A stretch of 36,215 nucleotides of DNA. Origin: Bacteroidia bacterium (GTDB lineage: Bacteria; Bacteroidota; Bacteroidia; AKYH767-A; OLB10). The notes under the pieces are model-generated. The model made no database searches. It saw nothing but the letters and a program-made list of their open reading frames with translations, and was not told the DNA's origin. Below are positions 4,997 to 33,607 of the stretch, piece by piece. Within the stretch, counting starts at the first letter, position 1. The number at the start of each line of letters is the position of its first letter. Where the stretch lies: positions 1-36,215 of the forward strand of contig JAEUTI010000039.1 of NCBI GenBank assembly GCA_016788065.1, given 5' to 3'. Both the position numbers and the translations under genes were made by a program.

Positions 4997-5005
4997 TAAC
5001 AAACT

Positions 5006-11006: not shown

Positions 11007-11954
11007 TTAATTTATTTTAATATTAAATGCATCTCTACGGGCATTTTTTCCTCTACTGAATGATTTGAGAATGATCATAGTTCTGCGAACAGAACGATGA
11101 AAGAAATCATAAGTAGTTAGAAGAATATTGTAAATATAATAAATTGGATCTTTAGAATCAAAATAAAGTTCATAGCCGAATTCTTTGGAATACTTGCCTG
11201 CCATCCAGTTATAGCGGTAGTGACGAAAGCGGCTCCAGTGACTAAATCTCCCTAGCGGATTAAAAGTTTTCGTTTTAGGAATCGGATCCCAGGTCACTTT
11301 TTCAGAATTACCTTTGAAAGTAGAGGAACCAATGACATCAAAATTCGCACTTTTGTCAAAATCAAATTTCGATTTATCAAGTTTCAGAAAATCAAGAATC
11401 TGAGTCATTACTTCTGTATTTTTCTGATACAGATCTTCATATTTGATGACAAGTACTCTCCCCGATTTCATTAATTTGGGATCATTCATAACATCATGGA
11501 TTGCTGCAGCACCACGTTTCCATCCACGCACCGCATCTTCAAAACGTGAGCTAAAGGTTTTCATAAATGATTCAACCAAATCCTGACCTTTCCGGGTTAT
11601 CACAATCATATAGCCCTCCGAAAACATTTCCAGATAATTTTTGGAATTGATGGCTGAAGGGGTTTTGGTGACCATATATTTAGCCGCAGCAGGACCGTTT
11701 CCGGGATTTAAATAGTTAAGCAGTCCCAGCTCCAAAGCTCTCCTGAAAACCTCATTGTCATTTTTCCAATCAGGGCTCCAATGTTTGGTAACTACGTCAT
11801 AAAATTCAAGATACTTGTCTGATGCAAAAAGAAAAAAATCTTCACCATAATGTCTGGAATGCACACAATCGGGATGAAGTGCTATTAACTGATACAAATA
11901 ATTTGTTCCACTTCTGGGGTTAATTCCAACAATAAAAATAGGGACTTTATGCAT
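11007..11954 (-). CDS. Sulfotransferase family protein
   Basis: A 315-residue PAPS-dependent sulfotransferase-like protein. The 5'-phosphosulfate loop is GINPRSGTNYLYQL (residues 10-23), a good match to the P-R-S-G-T family signature. The 3'-phosphate segment is VITRKGQDLVESFMKTF (118-134), with an Arg and a Ser in place, followed by VLVIKYEDL, the usual strand before the C-terminal half. No signal peptide is seen, so it is cytosolic. The acceptor could be a glycan, lipid or tyrosine side chain; neighbours do not tell. The 171 bases upstream (11955-12125) contain only a small perfect hairpin (CTTTC/GAAAG at 11971-11983) and no convincing promoter or RNA gene. Confidence 0.82.
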   Translation of the reverse strand: MHKVPIFIVGINPRSGTNYLYQLIALHPDCVHSRHYGEDFFLFASDKYLEFYDVVTKHWSPDWKNDNEVFRRALELGLLNYLNPGNGPAAAKYMVTKTPSAINSKNYLEMFSEGYMIVITRKGQDLVESFMKTFSSRFEDAVRGWKRGAAAIHDVMNDPKLMKSGRVLVIKYEDLYQKNTEVMTQILDFLKLDKSKFDFDKSANFDVIGSSTFKGNSEKVTWDPIPKTKTFNPLGRFSHWSRFRHYRYNWMAGKYSKEFGYELYFDSKDPIYYIYNILLTTYDFFHRSVRRTMIILKSFSRGKNARRDAFNIKIN

Positions 11955-12125
11955 ATTCTAATACTAAGACCTTTCGGAGAAAGCGTATTCTACTTTGATT
12001 TCACTTGCTAAAAATCGGCATTTATATCCTAAAATCAAAATAACCAAGATTAGTTCACTTAGAAAACACCAAGGACCAAATTTTTAAAATAATGATTATC
12101 AACTACTAATAGCTAAAAGTGCTCG

Positions 12126-13271
12126 CTACAAAGACTTTTCAGGTTTAAATTGTGAAAAAGTAAATTTCAGAAAAGTGAGCCCTAAAATTGCACAAGTTGC
12201 AGAACCAGCCAAAATACTAATCTTTGACATGGTGGTAAATGCAACAACATCAAATGCCAGCGTGCTAATAAAAATTGACATGGTAAAACCAATTCCGCCA
12301 AGCATTGCTGCTCCGGCTATCATCGGCCAGGTTACTCCATTCGGCAATGACGACCAACCGGTTTTAACCGACAACCAGGTAAAGAATAAAATACCAACCG
12401 GCTTGCCTATGACCAGGCCTGCCAATATCCCATAACTAACAGGAGAAGTAAGTGAAGCAATCAGATCACCTTCGAGAACTATGCCTGTATTTGCCAATGC
12501 AAAAATGGGCATAATAAACAATGCTACCGGTTTGTTAATAGCATGCTCAATGTGATGCAGCATCGACTTTGTTTCATCCTTAGCAATCGGAATTGTCAGA
12601 GCCAGCAGCACCCCTGCAATGGTTGCATGAATACCACTCTGCAGAATGAAAAACCATAACAGAACACCGGGAATTAAAAAATACAACAATTTATGTGAAC
12701 CACTTCTGTTTAATATGATTAACAACAAAAGCGTTGCCATTGCTGCACCAAACCATATCCATGAAAAACCATGTGAATAAAACAAAGCTATCACTAATAT
12801 TGCTCCCAGATCATCGACTACGGCCACTGCAACAAGAAATACTTTCAGTGCCACAGGAACACGGTTTCCTAACAATGATAACATTCCCAATGCAAAGGCA
12901 ATATCTGTTGCCATAGGAATTCCCCATCCACTAACTGAAGGCTGATTGTAGTTGAAACTCAGAAATAAAAGTGCCGGAAACAACATACCTCCTATTGCAG
13001 CCATAACGGGCATTGCTGCTGAACTAACAGATGACAACTCACCTCCTACCAGCTCTCGTTTGATTTCCAATCCCACCAATAAAAAAAAGACTGCCATCAA
13101 ACCATCGTTAATCCAGTGATGCAGGCTCATGCCCAGATTTATTTCCCAGAAAGAAAGATACTGACCACCCCAACTACTATTTGTAATCAACAAACTGATT
13201 GCGGTGCAGAAAATCAATAAAATTCCACCTGTTTGTTCTGATTTTACAAATTTTAAAAAGGTATCAAACAT
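12126..13271 (-). CDS. nhaA: Na+/H+ antiporter NhaA
   Basis: A 381-residue inner-membrane antiporter that exports Na+ (or Li+) in exchange for protons. Twelve hydrophobic segments are visible. Diagnostic motifs: FFLLVGLEIKRELVGGELS (62-80), PMATDIAFALG (119-129, Asp123 corresponding to E. coli Asp133) and VAVVDDLGAI (149-158, Asp153/Asp154 corresponding to Asp163/Asp164, the ion-binding pair). Length equals the family norm. Only a near-match -7 box, TACTTTTA, is seen upstream. It is a single gene between ispE and the sulfotransferase, with gaps of 113 and 171 bases. Confidence 0.96.
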   Translation of the reverse strand: MFDTFLKFVKSEQTGGILLIFCTAISLLITNSSWGGQYLSFWEINLGMSLHHWINDGLMAVFFLLVGLEIKRELVGGELSSVSSAAMPVMAAIGGMLFPALLFLSFNYNQPSVSGWGIPMATDIAFALGMLSLLGNRVPVALKVFLVAVAVVDDLGAILVIALFYSHGFSWIWFGAAMATLLLLIILNRSGSHKLLYFLIPGVLLWFFILQSGIHATIAGVLLALTIPIAKDETKSMLHHIEHAINKPVALFIMPIFALANTGIVLEGDLIASLTSPVSYGILAGLVIGKPVGILFFTWLSVKTGWSSLPNGVTWPMIAGAAMLGGIGFTMSIFISTLAFDVVAFTTMSKISILAGSATCAILGLTFLKFTFSQFKPEKSL

Positions 13272-18251: not shown

Positions 18252-20915
18252 CTACAGTTTTATTACTTTTCGTGTTGAAGTCAACTTGTTGTTGATTCTG
18301 ATGTAATAAACACCCTGCGCCAAATCAGAGATATCAATTTCAGCAGTGTGGGTAGGTAAAATCTTAATAGCTTTCACTTCTTGTCCATATAAGTTGAACA
18401 CATTTGCCGCAGTTATTTTTTCTGCTGTTTCCGTTAGCCGGATGGTGACTTTGTTGTTGGTGGGGTTTGGGAAGATTGAAATATTTCCTGGAGTGATTTC
18501 CTGCACACCTGTTGGCTGTACAATATTTGTAACAGCAGTGTTGGTAATGACAGGATTATTAAAATCAAAATAAATTGCTGCGAAGTTTTGAATGGAATCA
18601 TCCACTGCAACGGTTGTTTTTGGTTTAATGCGGTAACGAACAAAGCCATGACTCAATGGTTCATTGATGTTGCTATCTGGGAGCAGAATATTATTCATCA
18701 CAAACTCCAGATTGCGTTCATGGTAGACAAACCGAATATCGGCAGGATGCGAAGTTGCTACCATTTCCAGGGTACTCAAATCGAGGCGGTTGGTGTCGAG
18801 GGGATTTAAAATTTTAACGGTAAAGGCAGTGTCATTTCCGGTATTCTGATATCGGATTATATATTCCAGATCAGGTGGAGCAGGCATTTCATAATCGTAT
18901 AAGAAATTTCTGTTTACCAAAATATCATTTGGAACCATTGAGCCTGTTGTGTGCACTTCCCAGTAACTGGAATTACATCCCGGATTGGCATCGTTTGCAA
19001 TGGGAAGTATCATCGCTCCCGAGTTAATCAACGTTCCAATCGGCAACCCTAAATCAACACTAACGGTGATGGATAATTGTCCGGATTGAAAAGGTGTCAA
19101 CGTACTTAAAACAAACACCACCGAATCTTGCGCAATAGTTGTTGGTGTCACACTCGCCGAAACAAAACTCACATTGGTATCGGGATAAAAAACAATTGTT
19201 GGAATAAGTGTTGTGGTGCCTTGGTTGGAGTAATTCAACACATAACTCGCATTAAAACCTGAGCGGAACTGGCTTGTTGGTGTTATGGCTAAGCACAAAT
19301 CATTGAAAGTTCCGGTTGGTTGGAAGGCGAAATCGTTAAGGGAATCTATTTGCTGCATGGCTGTAAAAGTTCCGGTATGTACCATTGGAACAGGATTGTA
19401 AAAATTCAAGTAATCCGGTGCGACTTCGAAGTTTCCGGTATCTAAAACTGATACAATATAAAATCCGTTTAGTTGTGAAAATGCAAAACGAGTGGTGTTA
19501 CTTTCGGTTACTTTCACATAAGGAATGGCAGGATCCGTTGGTTCTTGAACTTGGTTGGAGTTTAGGTCCGCATAGGTTTTGCCTTGTATAAAGTTATAGT
19601 TTCCGGTGATTTTTACAATCCAAAAATCTTCCCCTCCATTCGAATTTTCCGCTTTATCACCCGAAATGTTTGAACTGGAAGTTCCGCCTAGTATGTATGC
19701 CTCGTCTGAGGTTTGCTGAATGAAATGTAACCTATCCTGACCATTCCCCAAAATTGTATTCTGCCACTGGATAGTTCCCAGGTTATCTGTTTTTACAATC
19801 CAAAAGTCTTCCCAACCATTGCTATTTTCTGATTTATCTCCCGAAATGTTTGAATCGGAAAATCCGCCTAGCATGTATCCTCCGTCAGCGGTTTGCTGAA
19901 TTGAATTAAGTCCATCAAAACTACTCCCCCCAATGGTATTCTGCCACTCTATAGTTCCCAAACTATCGGTTTTTACAATCCAATAATCAACTGATCCATT
20001 GCTGTTTTCTGTTTTATCACCCGAAATGTTTGAATTAGAATATCCACCCAGAATGTATCCTCCGTCTGAGGTTTGTTGTAAAGAAAAAAGCCGATCAATA
20101 CCACTCCCCCCAATGGTATTCTGCCACTCTATAATTCCAAGGCTATCTGTTTTTATGATCCAGTAATCGCCACCACCACCCAAACTGTTTTCTGTTTTAT
20201 CTCCCGAAATGCTTGAATTTGAATAGCCTCCCAGAATGTATCCACCGTCTGTGGTTTGTTGTACGGAATAAAGATAATCATAACTACTCCCTCCAATGGT
20301 ATTCTGCCACTCTATATTTCCAAGATTATCTGTTTTTACGATCCAATAATCCCAAGAACCATTGCTGTTCTCTGTTTTATCACCCGAAATGTTTGAATCA
20401 GACCATCCGCCCAGAATGTAACCTCCATCATTAGTTTGCCTTAACGATAAAAGTACTTCTTCACTATTCCCCCCAATCGTATTCTGCCACTCAATATTTC
20501 CCAAACTATCTGTTTTTACAACCCAGTAATCCCAATCACCATTGCTATTTTCAGTTTTATCTCCTGAAATGTTTGATTTGGAATATCCTCCCAGAATGTA
20601 TCCCCCGTCAGTGGTTTGCTGCAACGAAAAAAGAATATCAGCATCACTTCCTCCAATAGAATTCTGCCACTTGATATTTCCCAATCTATCTGTTTTTACA
20701 ATCCAATAATCGTTTCCTCCTTTGCTATTTTCAGTTTTATCTCCCGAAATGTTTGATTCGGAATATCCGCCAAGAATGTATCCACCATCTGAAGTTTGCT
20801 TTATGGTACGAAGCTCATCAGAGGCCATCCCCCCAATCGTATTCTGCCACTCAATTTCCTGAACAAATGATAGACTTGAAATAAGTACTAAAAGTAAGGT
20901 GAACAATTTTTTCAT
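18252..20915 (-). CDS. T9SS type A sorting-domain protein, seven-repeat propeller, paralogue 5 (last of train)
   Basis: An 887-residue secreted protein. Signal peptide 1-18. Seven repeats of about 59 residues (about 20-435) are very alike (YILGGYSNSNISGDKTENSN, DYWIVKTDSLGNIEWQNTIG) and probably form a seven-bladed beta-propeller. Then come an SdrD_B/prealbumin-like domain (GKTYADLNSNQVQEPTDP, about 436-515), a DUF11-like segment (about 520-650), a DUF7619-like domain (about 655-795) and a T9SS C-terminal domain from NISIFPNPTNNK to the end (about 811-887). Unlike the other four copies the extreme C-terminus is INNKLTSTRKVIKL instead of LISKIVKY. It is the most distal gene, 15 bases from a convergent gene. 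The ligand and role are unknown; surface adhesion or matrix binding is inference only. Confidence 0.88.
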   Translation of the reverse strand: MKKLFTLLLVLISSLSFVQEIEWQNTIGGMASDELRTIKQTSDGGYILGGYSESNISGDKTENSKGGNDYWIVKTDRLGNIKWQNSIGGSDADILFSLQQTTDGGYILGGYSKSNISGDKTENSNGDWDYWVVKTDSLGNIEWQNTIGGNSEEVLLSLRQTNDGGYILGGWSDSNISGDKTENSNGSWDYWIVKTDNLGNIEWQNTIGGSSYDYLYSVQQTTDGGYILGGYSNSSISGDKTENSLGGGGDYWIIKTDSLGIIEWQNTIGGSGIDRLFSLQQTSDGGYILGGYSNSNISGDKTENSNGSVDYWIVKTDSLGTIEWQNTIGGSSFDGLNSIQQTADGGYMLGGFSDSNISGDKSENSNGWEDFWIVKTDNLGTIQWQNTILGNGQDRLHFIQQTSDEAYILGGTSSSNISGDKAENSNGGEDFWIVKITGNYNFIQGKTYADLNSNQVQEPTDPAIPYVKVTESNTTRFAFSQLNGFYIVSVLDTGNFEVAPDYLNFYNPVPMVHTGTFTAMQQIDSLNDFAFQPTGTFNDLCLAITPTSQFRSGFNASYVLNYSNQGTTTLIPTIVFYPDTNVSFVSASVTPTTIAQDSVVFVLSTLTPFQSGQLSITVSVDLGLPIGTLINSGAMILPIANDANPGCNSSYWEVHTTGSMVPNDILVNRNFLYDYEMPAPPDLEYIIRYQNTGNDTAFTVKILNPLDTNRLDLSTLEMVATSHPADIRFVYHERNLEFVMNNILLPDSNINEPLSHGFVRYRIKPKTTVAVDDSIQNFAAIYFDFNNPVITNTAVTNIVQPTGVQEITPGNISIFPNPTNNKVTIRLTETAEKITAANVFNLYGQEVKAIKILPTHTAEIDISDLAQGVYYIRINNKLTSTRKVIKL
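18658..18880 (-). repeat. Homogenised 223-base DUF7619 block, copy in paralogue 5
   Basis: This encodes the segment around NPLDTNRLDLSTLEMVATS and FVYHERNLEFVMNNILLP. By eye it differs from the 23991-24213 copy at about 13 of 223 positions (about 94% identical) with no length change, while other parts of the two genes differ more. Confidence 0.75.
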
Positions 20916-20919
20916 GAAT

Positions 20920-23580
20920 CTAATATTTCACTATTTTACTGATAAGTTGGTTGCTGTTATTTAGTTTGATAAAATACACACCCTGAGCCAAATCGGAGAT
21001 ATCAATTACAGCAGTGTGCGCTGGTGCAATCCTAATTGATTTCACTTCTTGTCCGTAAATGTTGAATATATTTACCGAGCTAACTTTTTCTGCCGTTTCC
21101 GTTAGCCGGATGGTGATTTTGTTATTGGTGGGGTTTGGGAAGATGGAAATATTTCCTTTAGGGATTTCCTGAACACCTGTGGACTGGACAATATTTGTAA
21201 CAGCAGTGTTGGTAATGACCGGATTATTAAAATCAAAATAAATTGCTGCAAAGTTTTGGATGGAATCACCTACTGCAACTGTTGTTTTTGGTTTAATGAG
21301 ATATCGAACAAAACCATGACTCATGGGCTCGTTGATATTGCTATCGGGGAGTAGTATATTATTCATCACAAACTCCAAGTTGCGTTCATGGTAGACAAAA
21401 CGAATATCGGCAGGATGAGAAGTTGCTACCATTTCCAGGGTACTTAAATCGAGGCGGTTGGTATCGAGTGGATTTAAAATTTTAACGGTAAAGGCAGTAT
21501 CGTTTCCGGTATTCTGATATCTGATAATATATTCCAGATCCGGTGGAGTCGGCATTTCATAATCATAAATATATTTCCTGTTTACAATAATATCATTCGG
21601 ATCATAAGAACCGGTAGTAAACACCTCCCAGTAATTCGAATTGCATCCTGGGTTAGCATCGTTTGCAATGGGCAATATCATTGCTCCGGAATTAATGAGT
21701 GTGCCAATAGGCAGTCCGGTATTCACATTTACGGTTATGGTAATTTGTCCAGATTGAAAAGGATTCATAGTACCTAAAACGAACACAATAGAATCGGGAG
21801 TTATAGTTGTAGGTGTTAAGCTGGCTGAGATAAAAGTAACATTGTTATCGGGGTAAAACACAATGGTTGGAATTAATGTGGTTGTGCCCAAATTGGAATA
21901 ATTCAGTGCGTAATTGGCATTAAATCCCGAACGAAAATTTCCCAATGGAGAAATAGAAATGCATAGATCATTAAAACTTCCGGATGGTTGCAAAGCAAAA
22001 TCGTTCAAGGAATCAATCTGCTGAATAGCAGTGAAATTTCCCGTATGAGTTAGCGGAACAGGATTAAATAAATTCACATAATCGGGAGAAACCTCGAAGT
22101 TGCCGGAATCTAAAACTAATAAATTATAAAAACCTGTTGGTTGAGAAAATGCGAAACGGTTGGAGTTGCTCTCCGTTATTTTTAGGTAAGGAATTGCTGG
22201 ATCGCCGGGCTCTTGTTGTTGGTTAGAGTTTAAATCTGCGAAGGTTGTGCCTTGGATTTGATTATTATCATCAGTGATTTTAACGATCCAATAATCCCAA
22301 TCCCCCTTGGAATTTTCATTCTTATCAAATGATATATCACTCCTTGAGCCTCCACCCACTACAATCCCACCATTAATAGATTGTATTGATGGACACATCC
22401 AATCATCACCAATCCCCCCAATTGTATTCTGCCATCTAATATTGCCAGCAGAATCCGTTTTAATTATCCAAAAGTCGCCATCTCCATTTGAAACTTCTGT
22501 TTTAATTCCCGAAATATCAGAAATTGAGGTACCACATAACAAATATCCTCCATCACTTATTTGAATAATAGAACTTAAAGCATCAAATTCAGCCCCTCCA
22601 TATGTATGTTGCCATTGAATAATTCCAACTGAATCAATTTTAATCATCCAGTAATCATTTTCACCATACGAATTTTCACTTTTATCACCTGAAATAGTTG
22701 AAGAAGAATATCCTCCAAGTAAAAATCCATTATCAGACGTCAGAATAACAGAAGTTAGCATATCATCATCATTTCCACCAATTGTTCTCTGCCAAATGAT
22801 ATTTCCGTTGGCATTGATGTTAATAATCCAATAATCACATCCACCTCTTGAATTTTCATTTTTATCACCTGAAGCGTTTGAATATGAATACCCCCCTAAT
22901 AAATATTCGCCAACCGAATTTTGAACGATAGAGATTAACTCATCTGCACCAGCACCTCCAATTGTTTTCTGCCATATGATATTCCCGACGGCATTAATTT
23001 TTATAATCCAGAAATCACCGGAACCTTTTGAATTTTCACTTTTATCTCCTGAAATATCTGAATAAGAACTTCCTCCTAATAAATATCCGCCGTCGGGAGT
23101 TTGAATTAATGATCTAAGAATATCATAAGAAAGTCCTCCAATAGTATTCTGCCATTGAATATTTCCAACAGAATCAATTTTTACAATCCAGAAATCTTCT
23201 TCACCATTTGAATACTCAATTTTATCACCTCCCCAATCGGAATCAGAGGATCCACCTAACAAATATCCACCGTCAGCAGTTTGAATTATTGAATAAAGAT
23301 TATCTACATCAGCACCTCCTATCGTATTCTGCCATTCAATATTCCCAGCAAAATCGACTTTTAAGATCCAGTAATCAGCGTAACCAATACCATTCTCTGT
23401 TTTGTCTCCGGAAATACTAGACTCAGAATATCCTCCAAGCATATACCCGCCATCCGAAGTTTGAATAATGGAATTACATCTATCAGAATTTTGGCCCCCT
23501 ATAGTCCTCTGCCACTCAATTTCCTGAGCAAATGAAATACTTGAAATAAGTACAAAAAATAAGGTGAGTAATTTTTTCAT
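20920..23580 (-). CDS. T9SS type A sorting-domain protein, seven-repeat propeller, paralogue 4
   Basis: An 886-residue protein with the same order of parts as its neighbours: signal peptide (MKKLLTLFFVLISSISFAQ), seven repeats, SdrD_B-like, DUF11-like and DUF7619-like segments, and a T9SS tail ending LISKIVKY. Its repeats belong to a second sequence type (YLLGG in place of YILGG) and are less regular: blade 4 reads QNSVGEYLLGG, and blade 7 has INGGIVVGGGSRSDISFDKN. The first 80 bases, including the AGTC spacer, differ from those of the 26247-28907 copy by one base in my count, although the two propellers have diverged clearly. Export is through Sec and then T9SS to the outside or the cell surface. 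Confidence 0.88.
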   Translation of the reverse strand: MKKLLTLFFVLISSISFAQEIEWQRTIGGQNSDRCNSIIQTSDGGYMLGGYSESSISGDKTENGIGYADYWILKVDFAGNIEWQNTIGGADVDNLYSIIQTADGGYLLGGSSDSDWGGDKIEYSNGEEDFWIVKIDSVGNIQWQNTIGGLSYDILRSLIQTPDGGYLLGGSSYSDISGDKSENSKGSGDFWIIKINAVGNIIWQKTIGGAGADELISIVQNSVGEYLLGGYSYSNASGDKNENSRGGCDYWIININANGNIIWQRTIGGNDDDMLTSVILTSDNGFLLGGYSSSTISGDKSENSYGENDYWMIKIDSVGIIQWQHTYGGAEFDALSSIIQISDGGYLLCGTSISDISGIKTEVSNGDGDFWIIKTDSAGNIRWQNTIGGIGDDWMCPSIQSINGGIVVGGGSRSDISFDKNENSKGDWDYWIVKITDDNNQIQGTTFADLNSNQQQEPGDPAIPYLKITESNSNRFAFSQPTGFYNLLVLDSGNFEVSPDYVNLFNPVPLTHTGNFTAIQQIDSLNDFALQPSGSFNDLCISISPLGNFRSGFNANYALNYSNLGTTTLIPTIVFYPDNNVTFISASLTPTTITPDSIVFVLGTMNPFQSGQITITVNVNTGLPIGTLINSGAMILPIANDANPGCNSNYWEVFTTGSYDPNDIIVNRKYIYDYEMPTPPDLEYIIRYQNTGNDTAFTVKILNPLDTNRLDLSTLEMVATSHPADIRFVYHERNLEFVMNNILLPDSNINEPMSHGFVRYLIKPKTTVAVGDSIQNFAAIYFDFNNPVITNTAVTNIVQSTGVQEIPKGNISIFPNPTNNKITIRLTETAEKVSSVNIFNIYGQEVKSIRIAPAHTAVIDISDLAQGVYFIKLNNSNQLISKIVKY
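21326..21548 (-). repeat. Homogenised 223-base DUF7619 block, copy in paralogue 4
   Basis: Same length and almost the same sequence as the blocks at 18658, 23991 and 26653. The encoded core segment is identical in the four copies. Confidence 0.75.
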
Positions 23581-23584
23581 GACT

Positions 23585-26242
23585 CTAATATTTCACTATT
23601 TTACTTATAAGTTGGTTGCTGTTATTCAGCTTGATAAAATAAACACCTTGCGATAAATCCGAGATATCAATTTCAGCATTGTGCGTTGGAGCAACCTTGA
23701 GAGCTTTCACTTCTTGCCCATATAAGTTGAACACATTTGCTGCAGTTATTTTTTCTGTCGTTTCTGTTAGCCGGATTGTGACTTTGTTGTTTGTGGGGTT
23801 TGGAAAGATAGAAATATTTCCGTGAGGGATTTCCTGAACACCTGTGGGCTGGACAATATTTGTAACAGAAGTGTTGGTAATGACCGGATTATTAAAATCA
23901 AAATAAATTGCTGCAAAGTTTTGAATGGAATCACCCACTGCAACGGTTGTTTTTGGTTTAATGCGGTAACGAACAAAGCCATGACTCAATGGTTCATTGA
24001 TATTGCTGTCGGGGAGCAGAATATTATTCATCACAAACTCGAGATTGCGTTCATGGTAGACAAAACGAATATCGGCAGGATGCGAAGTAGCTACCATTTC
24101 CAGGGTACTTAAATCGAGGCGATTGGTGTCGAGGGGATTTAAAATTTTAACGGTAAAGGCAGTATCGTTTCCGGTATTCTGATATCTGATGATGTATTCC
24201 AGATCAGGTGGAGCAGGCATTTCATAGTCATAAATAAATTTCCTGTTAACAATAATATCATTCGGATCATAAGAACCGGTAGTAAAAATTTCCCAGTAAC
24301 TCGAATTACATCCCAGATTAGCATCGTTTACAATGGGCAATATCATTGCTCCTGAATTAATGAGTGTGCCTATAGGGAGCCCGGTATTCACATTTACTGT
24401 TATAGTAATTTGTCCAGATTGAAAAGGATTCATAGTACCTAAAACGAAGACTACAGAATCGAGAGTTATAGTTGTAGGTGTTATACTTGCCGATACAAAC
24501 GATACATTATTGTCAGGATAAAAAACAATGGTTGGAATCAATGCTGTATTCCCAAGATTGGAATAATTCAATGCATAATTTGCATTAAAACCCGAGCGGA
24601 AATTGCCTATAGGAGAAATAGAAATGCATAGATCATTGAAAGTTCCTGTGGGTTGAAATGCGAAGTCGTTAAGGGAATCAACCTGCTGAATGGCACTGAA
24701 ATTTCCCGTATGAGTTAGAGGAACCGTATTGTAAAGGTTTAAATAATCGGGAGCTACTTCAAAATTGCCGGAATCTAAAATTGCAATACTGTAAAATCCG
24801 GAGGCTTGCGAAAATGCAAAACGATTGGAGTTACTCTCCGTTACTTTGAGGTATGGTATTGCTGGATCGCTTGGCTCTTGTTGTTGGTTAGAGTTTAAAT
24901 CGGCATATGTTTTGCCTTGGATTAGGTTGTAGTTGTCGGTGATTTTTATTACCCAATAATCGAAACTTAGACTAATTTCTGTTTTATCACCCGAAATGTC
25001 TGAACTTGAAGCTCCACCCAAAATGTATCCCCCGTCTTTAGTTTGCCCTATGGAATAAAATTCTTCCGTCGAATTTCCCCCTATTGTATTCTGCCATTGA
25101 ATAGTACCCACACTATCTGTCTTTACGATCCAATAATCTCTATCAAGATTGCTTTTTTCAGTTTTATCGCCCGAAATGTTTGATTCGGACCATCCACCAA
25201 AAATGTATCCTTCATCCATAGTTTGGATTATGGAATATAGCTGATCAGTTTCACTACCTCCAATGTTATTCTGCCATTGAATTATCCCAAGGCTATCTGT
25301 TTTTACGATCCAGTAATCAAATGCTCCATTGCTGGTTTCTGTTTTATCACCCGTATTGGAGGAACTAGAAGCCCCACCCAAAATGTATCCCCTGTCATTA
25401 GTTTGCTGTATGGAACGAAGATAATCACTACCATTTCCCCCAATGGTATTTTGCCACTCTATAGTTCCGACGCTATCAGTCTTTACAATCCAATAATCAT
25501 ATAATCCAAGTTTATTTTCTGATTTATCACCCGAAATGTTTGAATTGGAATACCCACCCAAAATGTATCCCCCGTCTGCAGTTTGTTGCAACGAATAAAG
25601 TAAATCTGAAGAACTTCCCCCTATGGTATTCTGCCATTGGATAGATCCCAGACTATCAATTTTCACGATCCAATAATCATGATACCCATTGCTGCTTTCT
25701 GTTTTATCACCAGAAATATTTGAGACAGAATATCCGCCCAGAATATATCCGCCATCTGTGGTTTGTTTTATGGATCTGAGATAATCAAAACTATTTCCCC
25801 CAATGGTATTCTGCCACTCAATATTCCCAAGGCTATCGGTTTTTACGACCCAGTAATCAGAATCTCCATTGCTGTTTTCTGTTTTATCACCAGAAATGCT
25901 TGAATTAGAATCTCCGCCCAAGATGTATCCCCCATCTTCAGTTTGAACTAAAGAATAAAGTTCATCATGATCGCCTCCTCCGATGGTATTCTGCCACTCA
26001 ATATTCCCAAGGCTATCTGTTTTTATGATCCAGTAATCTGTAAAACCATTACTGTTTTCTGTTTTATCTCCCGAAATGATGGAATTGGAATACCCACCCA
26101 AAATGTATCCTCCATCAGCAGTTTGGATCACACATGACAATGCATCTTGACCACTCCCCCCAATAGTATTCTGCCACTCAATTTCCTGAGCAATAGAAAT
26201 AATTGACAGCAAAACAAAAAATGTTGTGAATAATTTTTTCAT
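23585..26242 (-). CDS. T9SS type A sorting-domain protein, seven-repeat propeller, paralogue 3
   Basis: An 885-residue protein. The A-type signal peptide is MKKLFTTFFVLLSIISIAQ. The seven repeats are nearly uniform and of the same type as in the last copy (YILGGYSNSNISGDKSEN, VKTDSLGNIEWQNTIGG), which makes these two propellers closer to each other than to the copies between or before them. Blade 7 is one or two residues short (EISLSFDYWVIK). SdrD_B-like, DUF11-like and DUF7619-like segments follow, then a T9SS C-terminal domain ending LISKIVKY. It starts 4 bases (AATC) after the TAG of the upstream copy with no Shine-Dalgarno sequence, so translation is probably coupled. Confidence 0.88.
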   Translation of the reverse strand: MKKLFTTFFVLLSIISIAQEIEWQNTIGGSGQDALSCVIQTADGGYILGGYSNSIISGDKTENSNGFTDYWIIKTDSLGNIEWQNTIGGGDHDELYSLVQTEDGGYILGGDSNSSISGDKTENSNGDSDYWVVKTDSLGNIEWQNTIGGNSFDYLRSIKQTTDGGYILGGYSVSNISGDKTESSNGYHDYWIVKIDSLGSIQWQNTIGGSSSDLLYSLQQTADGGYILGGYSNSNISGDKSENKLGLYDYWIVKTDSVGTIEWQNTIGGNGSDYLRSIQQTNDRGYILGGASSSSNTGDKTETSNGAFDYWIVKTDSLGIIQWQNNIGGSETDQLYSIIQTMDEGYIFGGWSESNISGDKTEKSNLDRDYWIVKTDSVGTIQWQNTIGGNSTEEFYSIGQTKDGGYILGGASSSDISGDKTEISLSFDYWVIKITDNYNLIQGKTYADLNSNQQQEPSDPAIPYLKVTESNSNRFAFSQASGFYSIAILDSGNFEVAPDYLNLYNTVPLTHTGNFSAIQQVDSLNDFAFQPTGTFNDLCISISPIGNFRSGFNANYALNYSNLGNTALIPTIVFYPDNNVSFVSASITPTTITLDSVVFVLGTMNPFQSGQITITVNVNTGLPIGTLINSGAMILPIVNDANLGCNSSYWEIFTTGSYDPNDIIVNRKFIYDYEMPAPPDLEYIIRYQNTGNDTAFTVKILNPLDTNRLDLSTLEMVATSHPADIRFVYHERNLEFVMNNILLPDSNINEPLSHGFVRYRIKPKTTVAVGDSIQNFAAIYFDFNNPVITNTSVTNIVQPTGVQEIPHGNISIFPNPTNNKVTIRLTETTEKITAANVFNLYGQEVKALKVAPTHNAEIDISDLSQGVYFIKLNNSNQLISKIVKY
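23991..24213 (-). repeat. Homogenised 223-base DUF7619 block, copy in paralogue 3
   Basis: A member of the near-identical set of four. The differences from the 18658 copy are scattered single bases, with no indels. Confidence 0.75.
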
Positions 26243-26246
26243 GATT

Positions 26247-28907
26247 CTAGTATTTCACTATTTTACTTATAAGTTGGTTGCTGTTATTCAGTTGGATGAA
26301 ATACACACCTTGCGCCAAATCAGAGATATCAATTTCAGCAGTGTGCGTCGGCGCAATCTTAAAAGCTTTTACTTCTTGCCCATATAAGTTGAACACATTT
26401 ACTTCAGTTAAATTTTCTGCTGATTCCGTTAGCCGGATGGTGAATTTGTTGTTTGTGGGGTTAGGGAAGATTGAGATGTTTCCTTGAGGGATTTCCTGAA
26501 CACCTGTGGGCTGAATAATTTTAGTAACAGCAGTATTGGTAATGACCGGATTATTAAAATCAAAATAAATTGCTGCAAAGTTTTGGATGGAATCGCCAAT
26601 AGTAACTGTTGATTTAGGTTTGATACGGTAACGAACAAAACCATGACTCATTGGTTCATTGATGTTGCTGTCGGGAAGTAAAATATTATTCATCACAAAC
26701 TCTAAGTTGCGTTCATGATAGACAAACCGAATATCGGCAGGATGCGAAGTTGCTACCATTTCCAGGGTACTTAAATCGAGGCGATTGGTATCGAGGGGAT
26801 TTAAAATTTTAACGGTAAAGGCAGTATCGTTGCCTGTATTCTGATATCTGATGATGTATTCCAGATCAGGTGGAACAGGCATTTCATAGTCATAGATGAA
26901 ACTTCTATTCACCAAAATATCATTCGGATCATAAGACCCGATTGTAAACACCTCCCAAAAACTGGAATTACATCCCGGGTTAACATCGTTAACAATGGGC
27001 AAAATCATTGCACCAGAATTAATGAGTGTGCCTATGGGCAGTCCGGTATTTACATTTACGGTTATGGTAATTTGACCAGATTGAAAAGGATTCATAGTAC
27101 CTAAAACGAAGACTACAGAATCGGGAGTTATAGTTGTAGGCGTTATACTTGCCGAAACAAACGATACATTATTGTCAGGATAAAAAACAATGGTTGGAAT
27201 CAATGCTGTATTCCCAAGATTGGAATAATTCAATGCGTAATTGGCATTAAAACCCGAGCGGAAATTACCTACAGGAGAAATAGAAATGCATAGATCATTA
27301 AAGGGTCCGGTTGGTTGGAAGGCAAAATCGTTCAATGAATCAACCTGCAGAAATGAAATGAAATTGCCCGTATGAGTCAGTGGTACCGGATTGAACAAAT
27401 TCACGAAATCAGGAGCTACTTCAAAGTTACCGGTATCGAAAACTGCTAAACTATAAAATCCACTAGGTTGTGAAAATGTGAATCGGCTAGATTTACTTTC
27501 TGTAATTTTTAAATAAGGAATTTCAGGATCCCCGGGTTCATTTTGTTGGTTTGAGTTGAGATCAGCAAATAAATTACCCCGTATTAAATTATAATTTTCT
27601 GTAATTTTGAATATCCAAAAGTCAGCAAGACCATTTGAATTTTCTGTTTTGTCTCCAGATAAATCTGAATAGGAAGTTGCTCCGAATAAAAACTTAGTAT
27701 CAGAAATTTGAATCAAAACTGGAGAATCTTCGCTATCTTCAGCACCTATATTATTTTGCCATTGAATCTCTCCTGACGAGTCAGTTTTAACTATCCAAAG
27801 ATCAACATCTTCAAACAGATCATCGGTTTTACTATAAGATATCCTAGAGTCTCCCCAACCTGCCATTAATATTTCATCGTTTTCTAAAAGAACAACTGAA
27901 GATAAATAATCCATTAAGCTACCGCCAATAGTTTTTTGCCATAAAACACTTCCTAGAGCATCTACTTTAACTATCCAAAAATCATAAGATCCAAAAGAAC
28001 CTTCTGATTTATCACCTGAAATGCCTGAATAAGAAGTTCCTCCCAATAGGTATCCTCCAGATGAAAATTCCGAAACTGAACACAATTCATCCTTGGCATT
28101 GCCTCCGATAGTATTCTCCCATTGTACAACTCCCAACGAATCTGTTTTAACTATCCAATAATCAAGATCCCCTAATGAATTTTCTGACTTATCAAATGAA
28201 CTGTCCGATTCAGAAGAACCTCCTAATAAAAAGCCTCCATCTGCTGTTTGAATAATGGATTTAAATTTATCTCTATAGGTTCCGCCAATAGTATTCTGCC
28301 ATTGTAAATTTCCAATTGAGTCAATTTTGACTATCCAATAATCCTCATAACCAATTATATCTTCGGTCTTATTACCAGAAATACCTGACATTGACAGTCC
28401 TCCTAAAAGATATCCTCCGTCATTTGTATTAATTATAGAATATAAATTATCAATATTATTTCCACCTATTGTTTTTTGCCATACAATTGAACCATTTTCA
28501 TCAATTTTAACTATCCAATAATCAAAACTGCCAATAACATTTTCAGTTTTATCACCTGAAATATTTGAACCTGACAACCCGCCAAGTAAATATCCACCAT
28601 CGTTGGATTCAACTACTGATAATAACTCATCTATATAATTTCCACCAATCGTATTCTGCCATTCTATGTTCATGGACGAATCCAACTTTAATACCCAATA
28701 GTCCGAATATCCCTGACAGTTTTCAGATTTATCTCCGGATATAACGGAGTTTGAAAAGCCACCAATTAAATACCCACCATCAGTGGTTTTTATCATTGTT
28801 GTCAACCTATCATTTTGAGCCCCCCCAATTGTATTCTGCCACTCAATTTCCTGAGCAAATGAAATACTTGAAATAAGTACAAAAAATAAGGTGAGTAATT
28901 TTCTCAT
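26247..28907 (-). CDS. T9SS type A sorting-domain protein, seven-repeat propeller, paralogue 2
   Basis: An 886-residue protein with a B-type signal peptide, MRKLLTLFFVLISSISFAQ. The repeats are of the YLLGG type and degenerate toward the C-terminal side: blade 6 has LENDEILMAGWGDSRISYSK and blade 7 starts NIGAEDSEDSPVLIQISDTK, losing the Gly-Gly pair and the DGGY signature. The heptad number is kept, which suggests the seven-blade fold is under selection while blade surfaces vary. The SdrD_B-like domain (GNLFADLNSNQQNEPGDPEI), DUF11-like segment, DUF7619-like block (almost identical to copies 3 to 5) and T9SS tail follow. Its role is unknown. Confidence 0.88.
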   Translation of the reverse strand: MRKLLTLFFVLISSISFAQEIEWQNTIGGAQNDRLTTMIKTTDGGYLIGGFSNSVISGDKSENCQGYSDYWVLKLDSSMNIEWQNTIGGNYIDELLSVVESNDGGYLLGGLSGSNISGDKTENVIGSFDYWIVKIDENGSIVWQKTIGGNNIDNLYSIINTNDGGYLLGGLSMSGISGNKTEDIIGYEDYWIVKIDSIGNLQWQNTIGGTYRDKFKSIIQTADGGFLLGGSSESDSSFDKSENSLGDLDYWIVKTDSLGVVQWENTIGGNAKDELCSVSEFSSGGYLLGGTSYSGISGDKSEGSFGSYDFWIVKVDALGSVLWQKTIGGSLMDYLSSVVLLENDEILMAGWGDSRISYSKTDDLFEDVDLWIVKTDSSGEIQWQNNIGAEDSEDSPVLIQISDTKFLFGATSYSDLSGDKTENSNGLADFWIFKITENYNLIRGNLFADLNSNQQNEPGDPEIPYLKITESKSSRFTFSQPSGFYSLAVFDTGNFEVAPDFVNLFNPVPLTHTGNFISFLQVDSLNDFAFQPTGPFNDLCISISPVGNFRSGFNANYALNYSNLGNTALIPTIVFYPDNNVSFVSASITPTTITPDSVVFVLGTMNPFQSGQITITVNVNTGLPIGTLINSGAMILPIVNDVNPGCNSSFWEVFTIGSYDPNDILVNRSFIYDYEMPVPPDLEYIIRYQNTGNDTAFTVKILNPLDTNRLDLSTLEMVATSHPADIRFVYHERNLEFVMNNILLPDSNINEPMSHGFVRYRIKPKSTVTIGDSIQNFAAIYFDFNNPVITNTAVTKIIQPTGVQEIPQGNISIFPNPTNNKFTIRLTESAENLTEVNVFNLYGQEVKAFKIAPTHTAEIDISDLAQGVYFIQLNNSNQLISKIVKY
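26653..26875 (-). repeat. Homogenised 223-base DUF7619 block, copy in paralogue 2
   Basis: A member of the near-identical set of four, although the propeller of this gene is strongly diverged from those of the 18252 and 23585 genes. Confidence 0.75.
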
Positions 28908-28911
28908 GACT

Positions 28912-31542
28912 CTAATATTTCACTATTTTACTTATGAGTTGGTTGCTGTTATTCAGCCTAATGAAATAAATACCTTGCGATAAATCGGAGATATCAATTT
29001 CAGTCGTGTGAGTAGGTGAAATCCTAAAAGCTTTTACTTCTTGTCCATAAATGTTGAACACATTTGCCGAAGTTATTTTTTCTGCCGTTTCCGTTAGCCG
29101 GATGGTGACTTTGTTGGTGGTTGGGTTTGGGAAGATAGAAATATTTCCTTGAGGGATTTCCTGAACACCTGTTGGCTGAATAATTTTAGTTACAGCCGTA
29201 TTGGTAATGACAGGAGTATTAAAATCAAAATAAATTGATGCAAAACTTTGAATAGAATCACCAACTGCAACAGTTGTTTTGGGCTTGATGCGATAACGAA
29301 CAAAACCATGACTCAATGGTTCATTGATGTTGCTGTCGGGAAGAAGTATATTATTCATGACAAACTCAAGTCTGCTTGCATGATAAACAAACTGAATATC
29401 AGCCGAGTGGGACGTTGCAGCTAATTCCAAAGTACTTAAATCGAGGCGATTGGTATCGATCGGATTTAGAATGGTTACGGTAAATGCTGTATCATTACCT
29501 GTATTCTGAAACCGGATAATGTATTCCAGATCAGGAGGAGCAGGTATTTCATAATCATATATGAATTTCCTGTTTACAATAATATCATTAGGGTCAAACG
29601 AGCCGGTTGTAAATACTTCCCAGAAACTGGAATTACATCCCGGATTAGCATCGTTGGCAATAGGCAGTATCAGCGCTCCGGAATTTATGAGTGTGCCTAT
29701 GGGGAGTCCTGTATTCACATTTACAGTTATTGTAATTTGGCCAAATTGAAAAGGATTCATAGCACCTAAAACGAATACTACCGAATCGGGGGTAACTGAT
29801 GTAGGAGAAATGCTGGCTGATACAAAAGTAACATTGTTGTCAGGATAAAAAACGATGGTTGGTATCAGTGTTGTATTCCCAATATTGGAATAATTTATTG
29901 CATAATTGGCGTTAAAACCTGACCGGAAATTTCCTAAAGGAGAAATAGAAATGCATAAATCATTGAAAGATCCGGTTGGTTGAAAAGCAAAATCGTTCAG
30001 GGAATCGATTTGTTGTACCGAGCTAAAATTTCCGCTATGAACCAAAGGTACGGGATTGAATAAATTCACATAATCAGGAGATACTACGAAATTGCCGGAA
30101 TCTAAAACTAATAAGTTATAAAATCCGGTTGGTTGAGAAAAAGTAAACCTGCCTGAATTAGATTCAGTAATTTTAAGATATGGAATCCCTGGATCACTAG
30201 AATTTTGCGACTGATTTGAATCCAAATCAGCATAGGTTTTTCCCCGGATGCGATTGAATTTTTCGGTGATGCTAAGAATCCAAAAATCGTATATACCATT
30301 CGTGATTTCTGATATATCACCCGACAAACTTGATCCAGAATGTCCACCTACTAAATAATCACCATTAGCAGTTTGAATAATTTGTGGATCATATTCATAA
30401 CTACTTCCACCCAGCGTATTATCCCATTCAATATTTCCGCTAGAATCAGTTTTAATAATCCACCAATCCCTCCACCATGAATCTTCGCTTTTATCATAAC
30501 CGGCATCAGCACTGGAATAGCCGGCTAACATCAAGCCACCGTCAGCAGTTGTAATCACGGAAGTCAATTTGTCAGGACCGCTTGAATTATACCCTTTATA
30601 ATTCTTCTGCCAGTTAACATTTCCTACTGAGTCAGATTTAACAACGTAGTAATCCGAATTCCCATTCTTACCCCCTCCTAAAATTAAACCTCCATCTGCA
30701 GTTTGAAGCAGCGCTGATAAGAATACATCTCCGTTATTTTGTATGGTATTTTGCCAATTAATATCACCCACTGAATCTATACTTACAATCCAATAGTCCA
30801 GATCACCTGAATTCTCAGTTTTATCTCCTGAAATTGGTGATTCAGAAATCCCACCTAATAATAAATTGCCATTCAGTATTGGAACTAACTTGTAACAAAA
30901 ATCATTCAAGGCACCTCCAATTGTTTTATCCCAAATCACATTTCCAAGAGGGTCAATCTTAACAATCCAATAATCATAATTACCTTTTGAATTTTCTGAT
31001 TTGTCTCCGGAAATATTGGACTGAGAATATCCTCCAAGGAGATATCCTCCATCTGCTGTTTGAACAACAGAGTACAACTTTTCATACAAACTCCCTCCAA
31101 TTGTCTTGTCCCAAAGTTTGATTCCGTTGGCATCTGTTTTCAAGATCCAGAAATCATAACCTCCTTTTGGATTTTCTGATTTATCGCCTGATGCAGCAGA
31201 GGCTGAATACCCCCCTAATAAAAATCCTCCATCATTTGTTTCAATTACAACAGTCATATAATCATCAGCATTGGCTCCAAATGCGTTTTGCCACAATACA
31301 ATCCCGTTTGAATCAGTTTTAAAAATACAATAGTCTAATAAATTATAGGTTGTTTGAGTAATATCTCCCGAAATAGTTGTGGTATTTGTTGTCCCTCCTA
31401 AAAGAATTCCACCATCGGAAGTTTGAATTATTGAAGTTAATTTTTCATTACTACTCCCCCCAATCATATTCTGCCACTTAATTTCCTGAGCAATAGAAAT
31501 AATTGAAAGCAAAACAAAAAATGTTGTGAATAATTTTTTCAT
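28912..31542 (-). CDS. T9SS type A sorting-domain protein, seven-repeat propeller, paralogue 1 (first after CotH)
   Basis: An 876-residue protein, the shortest and most divergent copy. The A-type signal peptide MKKLFTTFFVLLSIISIAQ is shared with the 23585-26242 copy. Seven repeats are still countable, but blade 1 carries TTTISGDITQTTYNLLDY, blade 5 lacks the SGDKTENSNG loop (LILGGGKNGNSDYYVVKSD, about 48 residues) and blade 6 is a few residues longer. The DUF7619-like block (29318-29540) also differs much more from the others (for example VTILNPIDTNR and HASRLEFVMNN). The T9SS tail ends LISKIVKY and is close to the CotH protein's tail. It begins 4 bases after the CotH gene. Confidence 0.88.
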   Translation of the reverse strand: MKKLFTTFFVLLSIISIAQEIKWQNMIGGSSNEKLTSIIQTSDGGILLGGTTNTTTISGDITQTTYNLLDYCIFKTDSNGIVLWQNAFGANADDYMTVVIETNDGGFLLGGYSASAASGDKSENPKGGYDFWILKTDANGIKLWDKTIGGSLYEKLYSVVQTADGGYLLGGYSQSNISGDKSENSKGNYDYWIVKIDPLGNVIWDKTIGGALNDFCYKLVPILNGNLLLGGISESPISGDKTENSGDLDYWIVSIDSVGDINWQNTIQNNGDVFLSALLQTADGGLILGGGKNGNSDYYVVKSDSVGNVNWQKNYKGYNSSGPDKLTSVITTADGGLMLAGYSSADAGYDKSEDSWWRDWWIIKTDSSGNIEWDNTLGGSSYEYDPQIIQTANGDYLVGGHSGSSLSGDISEITNGIYDFWILSITEKFNRIRGKTYADLDSNQSQNSSDPGIPYLKITESNSGRFTFSQPTGFYNLLVLDSGNFVVSPDYVNLFNPVPLVHSGNFSSVQQIDSLNDFAFQPTGSFNDLCISISPLGNFRSGFNANYAINYSNIGNTTLIPTIVFYPDNNVTFVSASISPTSVTPDSVVFVLGAMNPFQFGQITITVNVNTGLPIGTLINSGALILPIANDANPGCNSSFWEVFTTGSFDPNDIIVNRKFIYDYEIPAPPDLEYIIRFQNTGNDTAFTVTILNPIDTNRLDLSTLELAATSHSADIQFVYHASRLEFVMNNILLPDSNINEPLSHGFVRYRIKPKTTVAVGDSIQSFASIYFDFNTPVITNTAVTKIIQPTGVQEIPQGNISIFPNPTTNKVTIRLTETAEKITSANVFNIYGQEVKAFRISPTHTTEIDISDLSQGIYFIRLNNSNQLISKIVKY
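29318..29540 (-). repeat. Divergent 223-base DUF7619 block, copy in paralogue 1
   Basis: Alignable over the same 223 bases but with roughly 45 differences from the other copies by eye. It lies outside the set that appears homogenised. Confidence 0.7.
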
Positions 31543-31546
31543 GATT

Positions 31547-33607
31547 CTAATATTTTACAATTTTAAAAATAAGTTGGTTGTTGTCATTCAGCCAAATGAA
31601 ATAAACACCCTGTGATAAATCGGAGATATCAATTTCAGCAGTGTGAGTAGGCGCAATCTTAAAAGCTTTCACTTCTTGCCCGTATATGTTGAACACATTT
31701 ACTTCAGTTATTTTTTCTGCCGTTTCCGTTAGCCGGATGGTGACTTTGTTGGTGGTTGGGTTTGGGAAGATGGTGAAAGAGTTTGAAGCATTTGTCAATT
31801 CATTTTCGCCGCTCAACGTACACACACCCGGGATATTGGAATCGAGCCACGTTAACCGCTGTTGGATCCAGTTTTTCATGTTTGTTACTTCTCCTGCATA
31901 AGTGCTGGCAACTGGTTGTGGATTTGCCCAGACAGCGGTGCCCAAAATTGGCCACTTCGTAAAATGACGATTTTTGGCTTCATCTAATTCCAGAGCCCAC
32001 TCATCAATTTTATTCAGCAATGTGTCAGTATGAAGCACCGACAGCCTCAGTTCTTCCCACCTGCACCTGAGCGCATCCTTGTAATAAGGATCCTGCAACA
32101 TCCTGGTCCACCAGAATGGAACATTATTTTCACCAGCAGTTCCACAAACATTGTTATATTGGTATTGCCAGCCTGATGTAGTGTAGCCTAAACAATAATC
32201 AGCATTCCAGAAGCCAATGTTGTAATCCCATGCAGGTCCAATGTAAAGCTTGCCACCTTTGGTGATTTTCTTTTTGTAGAGAAAGGTACTGTTCCGGTAT
32301 GCATCTACATTTTTCGAAGTTTCATTGAGGATGAAATAATCGATGAATGATTCTACATCAATAAACTTTTTATATCCACTATCGGGACTGGTAAACCAGG
32401 ATGCCTGCAGTGCATTTTCAAATGAATCGACATATGATTCGATATAGACTTTTTGTTGCGGCATAATTTCGGTGTAATCGGGGTACTCGTACTGGAATCG
32501 AATCAACGTCCCGGGATAACCGGCATAATTAGAATACCAACCCGGAGTACTTCCTCCAATGGGTTTATCGATTTTAATAATATACCCGCCGGTCAAATCG
32601 TCACCGGTTGTATCGGCAGGAACTAATTTGGAAATATCAACACGGTTAGAGTCACGTTTAATTTTCTCAAGGAGTACATATATTCCTTTATAATCGTTGT
32701 TGATCACCAATTCGCAAAATTGTGTGCGCGATGCATAATGTCCTGTTTTATTGGCGATATCGTATGCAAGCACATTTCGAATACAGGTTTTATCATTGTA
32801 TGGGGCGTATAAAATCCAGTCGCTTTCAGCGGGCATGCCAAGCAGCATGGTTTCCACTTCCTCATTGGTACTATCCAGCGTTTCAAAGCCATATTGTTTT
32901 TGTGGGAATGTCTGCGACCAGGAGCCTCTTATTTCAATTCCAATATTTCCATCGTAATTATTGAAGGGATCCGATAAATAATTGATAGCACCAGGTCCAT
33001 TGTAAATAATTCCCATGTGCGCAATGATTTTAGGGTCATCCACAATGGTTTGACCATTCGTATTTAGCACAACAATTGGCAAATTGGAAGAACCAAAAAC
33101 AAAAGGAAGCGCAGGGTTATTGCCAAATGTTACATTCCAGGCTAATAAGGTTCCGGAAGTTCCAAAATTCTGATCCCTGATTTTCAGCTGCCAGGTTCCA
33201 TTTCCATTCTGTCCATTATTTACATTCCCTAAAATTCCCTGAGCAATATAATTCCCCGAAAAAGGAGCACTTCCCGCAGTTATACTCGTAGTTGCATTAG
33301 CAGTAAAACATGTATTGGTATAATTATTTCCCGTTCCTCCATTATTCATAGATAAATCAATGGTAGTTCCATCGGGTGCCACAATCTGAATTGTTAGATG
33401 GTAATCGTTGTTGTGAAGCAAGTTAATACAAACCGATTGAAGTCCGAAAGAACTATCGATAACAGTCGATGATAATCCACTTACCGTAATCGGGAAATAA
33501 ACATAATTGTTGTTATCAGGAATAGCACCTCCTGTACCTGAAAAAGTTTGAGCCTTGGAAATGAGAGAAACAACAACAAAAGATAAAACAAGCAGAATGC
33601 GCTTCAT
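31547..33607 (-). CDS. Secreted P-domain / CotH-kinase-like protein with T9SS sorting domain
   Basis: A 686-residue protein with signal peptide MKRILLVLSFVVVSLISKAQ. Residues about 24-164 resemble a proprotein convertase P-domain (HLTIQIVAPDGTTIDLS, NGTWQLKIRDQNFGTSGTLL, AWNVTFG). Residues about 172-595 are CotH-like: YNGNIGIEIRG-type opening (NYDGNIGIEIRGSWSQTFPQ), GIYVLLEKIKRDSNRVDISK (308-327, nucleotide/catalytic region) and GPAWDYNIGFWN (457-468, with the presumed metal-binding Asp461). Residues 611-686 are a T9SS type A domain nearly the same as in the five downstream proteins. CotH proteins of Bacillus phosphorylate spore-coat proteins; whether this secreted relative is an active kinase is unknown. 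It heads the train behind a candidate promoter and is followed after 4 bases by the first propeller gene. Confidence 0.88.
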   Translation of the reverse strand: MKRILLVLSFVVVSLISKAQTFSGTGGAIPDNNNYVYFPITVSGLSSTVIDSSFGLQSVCINLLHNNDYHLTIQIVAPDGTTIDLSMNNGGTGNNYTNTCFTANATTSITAGSAPFSGNYIAQGILGNVNNGQNGNGTWQLKIRDQNFGTSGTLLAWNVTFGNNPALPFVFGSSNLPIVVLNTNGQTIVDDPKIIAHMGIIYNGPGAINYLSDPFNNYDGNIGIEIRGSWSQTFPQKQYGFETLDSTNEEVETMLLGMPAESDWILYAPYNDKTCIRNVLAYDIANKTGHYASRTQFCELVINNDYKGIYVLLEKIKRDSNRVDISKLVPADTTGDDLTGGYIIKIDKPIGGSTPGWYSNYAGYPGTLIRFQYEYPDYTEIMPQQKVYIESYVDSFENALQASWFTSPDSGYKKFIDVESFIDYFILNETSKNVDAYRNSTFLYKKKITKGGKLYIGPAWDYNIGFWNADYCLGYTTSGWQYQYNNVCGTAGENNVPFWWTRMLQDPYYKDALRCRWEELRLSVLHTDTLLNKIDEWALELDEAKNRHFTKWPILGTAVWANPQPVASTYAGEVTNMKNWIQQRLTWLDSNIPGVCTLSGENELTNASNSFTIFPNPTTNKVTIRLTETAEKITEVNVFNIYGQEVKAFKIAPTHTAEIDISDLSQGVYFIWLNDNNQLIFKIVKY

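Follow-up and report, generated by a model that had tools for sequence, protein, structure and literature searches.

A locus-specific T9SS sorting domain shared by a CotH-type gene and the adjacent propeller gene array of a Bacteroidia bacterium

The sorting domains (tails) of T9SS cargo usually vary between proteins, even inside one genome. Tail sequences in general are described as very dissimilar in the accessible part of PMC11285876, and according to the available sections of PMC10202324 a tail by itself can drive the secretion of a fused protein. How, then, did a CotH-type gene and the five propeller genes next to it come to end in one type of tail? The locus suggests recombination in which genes copy the export tags of their neighbours. 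It lies in a window of 36,215 bases (the whole stretch of DNA that was analysed), which is contig C7 of the 4.26-Mb genome G000. The CotH-type gene is followed by the propeller genes g1 to g5, all on the minus strand and with 4 nt between successive genes in the list of open reading frames. The features of the locus are:

31547-33607, minus strand: CotH gene, 686 aa, first in the run, with PF01483 (P-domain), PF08757 (CotH kinase) and PF18962 (T9SS tail) above cut-off
31550-31771, minus strand: CotH sorting domain, IFPNP...KIVKY, TIGR04183 above cut-off, with a sharp upstream border at 31771
31547-31549, minus strand: CotH stop codon
31706-31771, minus strand: 66-bp block in CotH, identical to 29071-29136 in g1
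31489-31549, minus strand: junction CotH/g1 (stop, 4-nt spacer, start, g1 signal peptide), 60/61 identical to junction g2/g3
28912-31542, minus strand: g1, propeller gene, 876 aa, DUF7619, tail at 28915-29136
29071-29136, minus strand: g1 copy of the 66-bp block
26247-28907, minus strand: g2, propeller gene, 886 aa, tail at 26250-26471
26189-26249, minus strand: junction g2/g3, near-identical to junction CotH/g1
23585-26242, minus strand: g3, propeller gene, 885 aa, tail at 23588-23809
20920-23580, minus strand: g4, propeller gene, 886 aa, tail at 20923-21144
18252-20915, minus strand: g5, last propeller gene, 887 aa, DUF7619, tail at 18255-18476, the most diverged, lacking the shared junction on its 3' side

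The CotH protein belongs to the CotH kinase family (PF08757, 214.8 bits against a cut-off of 23.8), and all six proteins of the run (6/6) end in a type A T9SS sorting domain scoring above the TIGR04183 cut-off. In the three proteins that were scanned with Pfam, PF18962 reached 53.7 (CotH), 54.4 (g1) and 50.2 bits (g5) against a cut-off of 27, and the two propeller proteins among them, g1 and g5, both combined DUF7619 with the T9SS tail. The N-terminal half of g3 matched CylK in the PDB (E = 1e-12); CylK contains a propeller, and the match fits this assignment. As predicted from the known function of the tail family, all six proteins should be exported by the T9SS. Tails of this kind are very abundant in G000, with 434 candidates at first pass and all 150 scored ones (150/150) above the TIGR04183 cut-off. 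A Bacteroidota promoter pattern had no match upstream of CotH and three matches in the window, against 2.7 expected by chance.

Over its final 222 coding bases, CotH was identical without gaps to the ends of g1 to g5 at 197, 190, 190, 181 and 175 positions, respectively (79–89%), and the next-best ungapped match in the rest of the window reached 87/222. The encoded tails of 74 residues end in KIVKY or KVIKL, and those of the propeller proteins are 73–86% identical to the CotH tail at the amino acid level. The initial annotation had described the similarity as extending over about 240 bases (31547–31790). The close likeness to all five propeller ends is confirmed, although its limit is at 31771, where the Ile codon of IFPNP begins, and not at 31790. 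This border is abrupt: in the 60 bases 5' of it, CotH agrees with the propeller genes at 17–19 positions (17/60 with g1), as expected by chance. Likewise, the identical stretch of more than 50 bases that had been reported at 31714–31772 and 29077–29135 exists and proved to be longer and offset, comprising 66 bp (31706–31771 in CotH and 29071–29136 in g1). On the other side, the similarity runs past the stop codon and includes the 4-nt spacer, the start codon and the signal peptide of the next gene. The junctions after g1, g3 and g4 are identical to junction CotH/g1 at 44–49 of 61 positions; the sequence 3' of g5 agrees with it at only 21/61. Because the shared unit extends this far beyond the tail, direct repeats lie on either side of each propeller gene: the unit of tail, stop, spacer, start and signal peptide stands ahead of all five, and each of the five ends in the tail. 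The signal peptides themselves are near-identical in g1 and g3 and in g2 and g4, a grouping at variance with that of the propeller parts. Upstream of the tail, the body of CotH gave no blastp match to any of the five propeller bodies at E ≤ 1e-3, in agreement with the earlier statement that the remainder of the protein is unrelated to them, and the propeller proteins are related to each other.

A search of the whole G000 genome at the DNA level with the last 244 bases of CotH returned six matches (40 of 42 candidates scored), all of them at this locus (CotH itself and g1–g5, E = 3e-80 to 2e-59). We compared the 150 sorting domains of G000 scored by TIGR04183 (of the 434 candidates) together with the tail of the CotH paralogue CotH2, that is, 151 tails and 11,325 pairs with a mean nucleotide identity of 0.44. 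All pairs with an identity of at least 0.70 (25/25) were neighbours on the same contig: fifteen within CotH and g1–g5, six within a propeller array on contig C91, and one each on C65, C3, C17 and C30. A search among the 151 for unlinked tails as alike as these found none: the maximum over 11,216 unlinked pairs was 0.66, and the best unlinked partner of the CotH tail among the matches listed reached 0.54 (C15:40815). Protein family did not predict tail similarity. Propeller paralogues on C91 and C30 have 52–65% of body residues in common with the propellers of the window and tails with just 0.38–0.47 nucleotide identity among the pairs listed, and CotH homologues with a recognisable tail in 20 relatives have bodies that are 45–55% identical and tails at 0.19–0.32 amino acid identity (background mean 0.28). 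With the similarity of the CotH tail confined to the locus and tail identity low in paralogues and homologues, the aligned tails thus cluster by locus and not by protein family. Across 61 genomes, this tail type gave eight matches at 124–164 bits, the next best having 50.5 bits, and occurred at no other locus; no donor from another locus or relative was found in these genomes at E ≤ 1e-9.

Tail sharing between non-homologous neighbours is rare. Of the 84 linked G000 pairs whose bodies are not homologous, 6 have a tail identity of at least 0.6; five of these combine CotH with the array and one is on C17. None of 60 such pairs reached 0.6 in the sister genome G001, for which 124 tails were compared (of 150 scored, from 351 candidates) together with CotH2.

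G001 also allowed the shared tail to be dated. From 79 reciprocal-best pairs between the two genomes we kept 72 whose bodies were ≥ 70% identical across ≥ 60% of the shorter one; one of the 72, CotH2, was added by hand. Median identity of these ortholog pairs was 94.6% for bodies and 93.6% for tails. Since tails diverge as fast as bodies, the sharing at the locus is read as local copying, and the dissimilarity of unlinked tails is not merely an effect of fast evolution at this distance. Fast tail evolution as the cause of dissimilar tails elsewhere was accordingly rejected for close relatives; it may still apply where bodies are about 60% identical. Among CotH proteins, tail identity reaches background once that of the bodies drops to this level, so deeper comparisons cannot tell replacement from divergence. 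The CotH gene of G001 (contig C56) has the same tail type, with 166 of 178 aligned bases identical to the G000 tail (0.933) and a body identity of 0.936. The sharing is therefore older than the species split. In G001 the locus is broken between contigs, which stop within the CotH tail and within a propeller gene, and most of the array is absent from this assembly. Its CotH and its gene at the g5 position, located on separate contigs, have tails that are 0.79 alike. The initial suggestion that the sorting domain had been moved or converted as a cassette is supported by the grouping by locus, with 0.66 as the best unlinked tail pair, and is refined by the sister genome: the tail did not arrive in a recent single jump, as the sister CotH has the same tail type.

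Within the array, sequence exchange left traces. The gene at the g5 position in G001 is a mosaic, with a middle part like g2, g3 or g4 and an end like g5; whichever parent pair was tested, the maximum chi-square was reached in none of 5000 permutations. Runs tests detected identity tracts between g2 and g3, g2 and g5, and g3 and g5 (0/1000 shuffles each), the first also on the six tails alone. For the 66-bp tract between CotH and g1, the test on the six tails alone gave p = 0.03, which lost significance when corrected for 15 pairs, and the test on five tail-plus-junction units of 283 nt gave p = 0.0004 (0.004 corrected for 10 pairs); the two tests differ in their sequence sets and in strength. 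The propeller parts are about equally divergent within the array (0.49–0.73 amino acid identity) and against C91 and C30 (0.44–0.71). DUF7619 (0.85–0.96 within, 0.52–0.67 between) and the tail (0.68–0.84 within, 0.18–0.30 between) have been homogenised within the array; these ranges exclude ORF C91_0, which is not a propeller paralogue. The propeller of g5 is 0.71 identical to that of a C91 paralogue but only 0.52 to that of g1. CotH itself showed no sign of recent conversion (tail 0.933 and body 0.936 since the split). Because its tail and body have changed equally, present-day exchange is demonstrated for the array and only suggested for CotH.

We consider it reasonably probable (roughly 60%) that CotH and the array carry one locus-specific type A tail that goes back to a founding in-frame transfer followed by conversion and unequal crossing-over. 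Before the sister species split, one of the two gene families would have taken the tail of the other, in either direction, by in-frame recombination at the border between body and tail, at the IFPNP codons. A possible simple route would be a deletion that fused the 3' end of CotH to the tail of a propeller gene formerly at the head of the array; such a deletion would also account for the presence of stop, 4-nt spacer and following signal peptide in the shared unit. The repeat of tail, stop, spacer, start and signal peptide would then bound every propeller gene on both sides. Unequal crossing-over between repeats could add or drop whole propeller genes and would leave CotH complete, with a hybrid tail, and conversion between repeats could keep the tails similar.

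A simpler course of events, possible if on the unlikely side, is one founding transfer of the tail to CotH, or from CotH to the array's founder, with tandem duplication and plain descent without conversion thereafter. The equal divergence of the CotH tail and body since the split fits such a history, as do the lack of significance of the CotH–g1 tract on tails alone after correction and the within-array tail identities, which are about the same as the identities immediately upstream. Plain descent is at odds with the mosaic gene in G001 and the identity tracts within the array, and also with propeller parts that are as divergent within as between arrays and yet have similar 3' ends. That selection made the tails converge, or kept them similar at the protein level in six proteins needing one signal, is highly improbable. 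All six are T9SS cargo by profile and are encoded in one gene run with 4-nt gaps, as this explanation would have it, but selection on the tail protein leaves unexplained both the exact 66-bp block and the near-identity of stop, spacer and signal peptide, and other cargo of G000 manages with tails at a mean nucleotide identity of 0.44.

Even less credence is due to an assembly error in which the repeats produced a chimera of CotH and a propeller tail. Contig ends inside the CotH tail and a propeller gene, as in G001, are typical of repeats; against an artefact, the separately assembled contig C56 of G001 joins the CotH body to the same tail type (166/178 bases), and the CotH tail of G000 has a base that is unique among the copies (alignment column 320). 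Finally, the sorting domains of G000 might all be much alike, with nothing local about the sharing. Some genomes do repeat tails widely, such as that of Stygiobacter electus with 28 matches to one 171-nt tail, but the ceiling of 0.66 for unlinked pairs in G000 and the restriction of the DNA search to this locus leave this explanation practically no probability. On the same two results, a genome-wide tail cassette was rejected for G000 within the tails compared.

In a wider reading, which we offer tentatively and regard as rather unlikely, sorting domain and junction together would act as a recombination repeat that builds arrays of T9SS surface proteins: each array would have its own tail type, the repeats would drive gain and loss of variable propellers beside a fixed anchor such as CotH, and unrelated neighbours would be drawn into the same tail. 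Tail type would then identify the locus instead of the protein family, both at this site and in other arrays, the ones on C91 and C30 among them.

The locus is a clear case, at the DNA level, of an already known phenomenon, for which the KLIKK proteases of Tannerella forsythia are the closest precedent. In the accessible part of PMC4404884, these proteases of different families, encoded in two gene clusters, are reported to have a nearly identical tail; its authors called the common tail unusual, suggested a recent common origin and left the explanation open. The CotH-array set resembles the KLIKK set without being a member of it. In both, clustered T9SS cargo of different families ends in similar tails amid the variable tails of the same genome, and the bodies are unrelated, here between CotH and the five propellers. 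The KLIKK set, as presented in these sections, comprises serine and metalloproteases with virtually identical tails of 86 residues ending in KLIKK, whereas the present tails occur on a CotH kinase-like protein and propellers, have 74 residues ending in KIVKY or KVIKL, and are less identical (73–86% to the CotH tail); the Pfam scan of CotH, g1 and g5 found no protease family, and none of the tails has a KLIKK end. The DNA-level border, the junction repeat and the dating by a sister species are provided here and were not encountered in the sections of PMC4404884 at hand. With unrelated neighbours sharing one tail, a border sharp to the base and timing by a sister species, the origin of common tails in clustered cargo, left open for the KLIKK proteases, becomes directly testable.

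All six tails belong to the type A T9SS sorting domains (TIGR04183/PF18962), of which the locus has its own version on unrelated bodies. Recombination of modules among T9SS-exported surface proteins is likewise described for Porphyromonas gingivalis; in the available text of PMC5266723, strains exchange adhesin modules and alleles, and the T9SS tail is called conserved and is not named among what is exchanged. In the literature searched, which lies mostly outside subscription journals and was accessible in part, we found no description of conversion between the tails of neighbouring T9SS genes. A practical caution is that tail-based trees or annotation transfer can track the locus instead of the protein.

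Concerted evolution of tandem gene arrays is a known process. As expected under it, the 3' parts of the array genes are more similar within than between arrays; unlike in concerted evolution, the non-homologous first gene, CotH, participates, and by its tail only.

Several further loci of G000 have shared or exchanged tails. The tandem paralogues at 3572–5041 and 5065–6543 on C65 have tails with 0.99 nucleotide identity and bodies with 0.69–0.83 per 40-codon window, with the change at the tail border, and are a cleaner instance of tail homogenisation than the CotH case. Among three neighbours on C3 (3817–8145, 8540–13054 and 13066–14901), two large paralogues have tails with 0.91 nucleotide identity on bodies with 43% amino acid identity, and the third neighbour has the linker VNVPCRVGEL in common with them and a different tail. 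Three genes without body homology (C17 1690–2259, C17 8279–9952 and C24 2720–4240) have related tails, at 0.71 for the linked and 0.66 and 0.62 for the unlinked pairs, and are the sole other instance of non-homologous sharing of at least 0.6 among the tails compared.

Between the sister species, the CotH2 orthologues (G000:C61:108000–117400 and G001:C116) have bodies with 95% and tails with 23% amino acid identity, and the divergent segment extends through the convergent downstream gene (67% nucleotide identity) to an ATP synthase-like gene (92%). The pair G000:C37 5454–7283 and G001:C6 2662–4497 has 97% identity in the body, 39% in the tail and 74% nucleotide identity in the convergent downstream gene. 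Clean swaps of the tail alone were ruled out for both pairs, as the divergence reaches the convergent downstream gene, and we therefore read them as longer imported segments with one break near the border of body and tail. In Stygiobacter electus, a fragment of a tail (12860–13030), in a short ORF that shows no body, lies 1 kb downstream of the 171-nt tail of a CotH gene (11876–12046) and has 95% identity to it. The CotH tail has 26 further matches elsewhere in that genome, mostly partial and with 69–93% identity; tails of this organism are thus repeated more widely than at one site.
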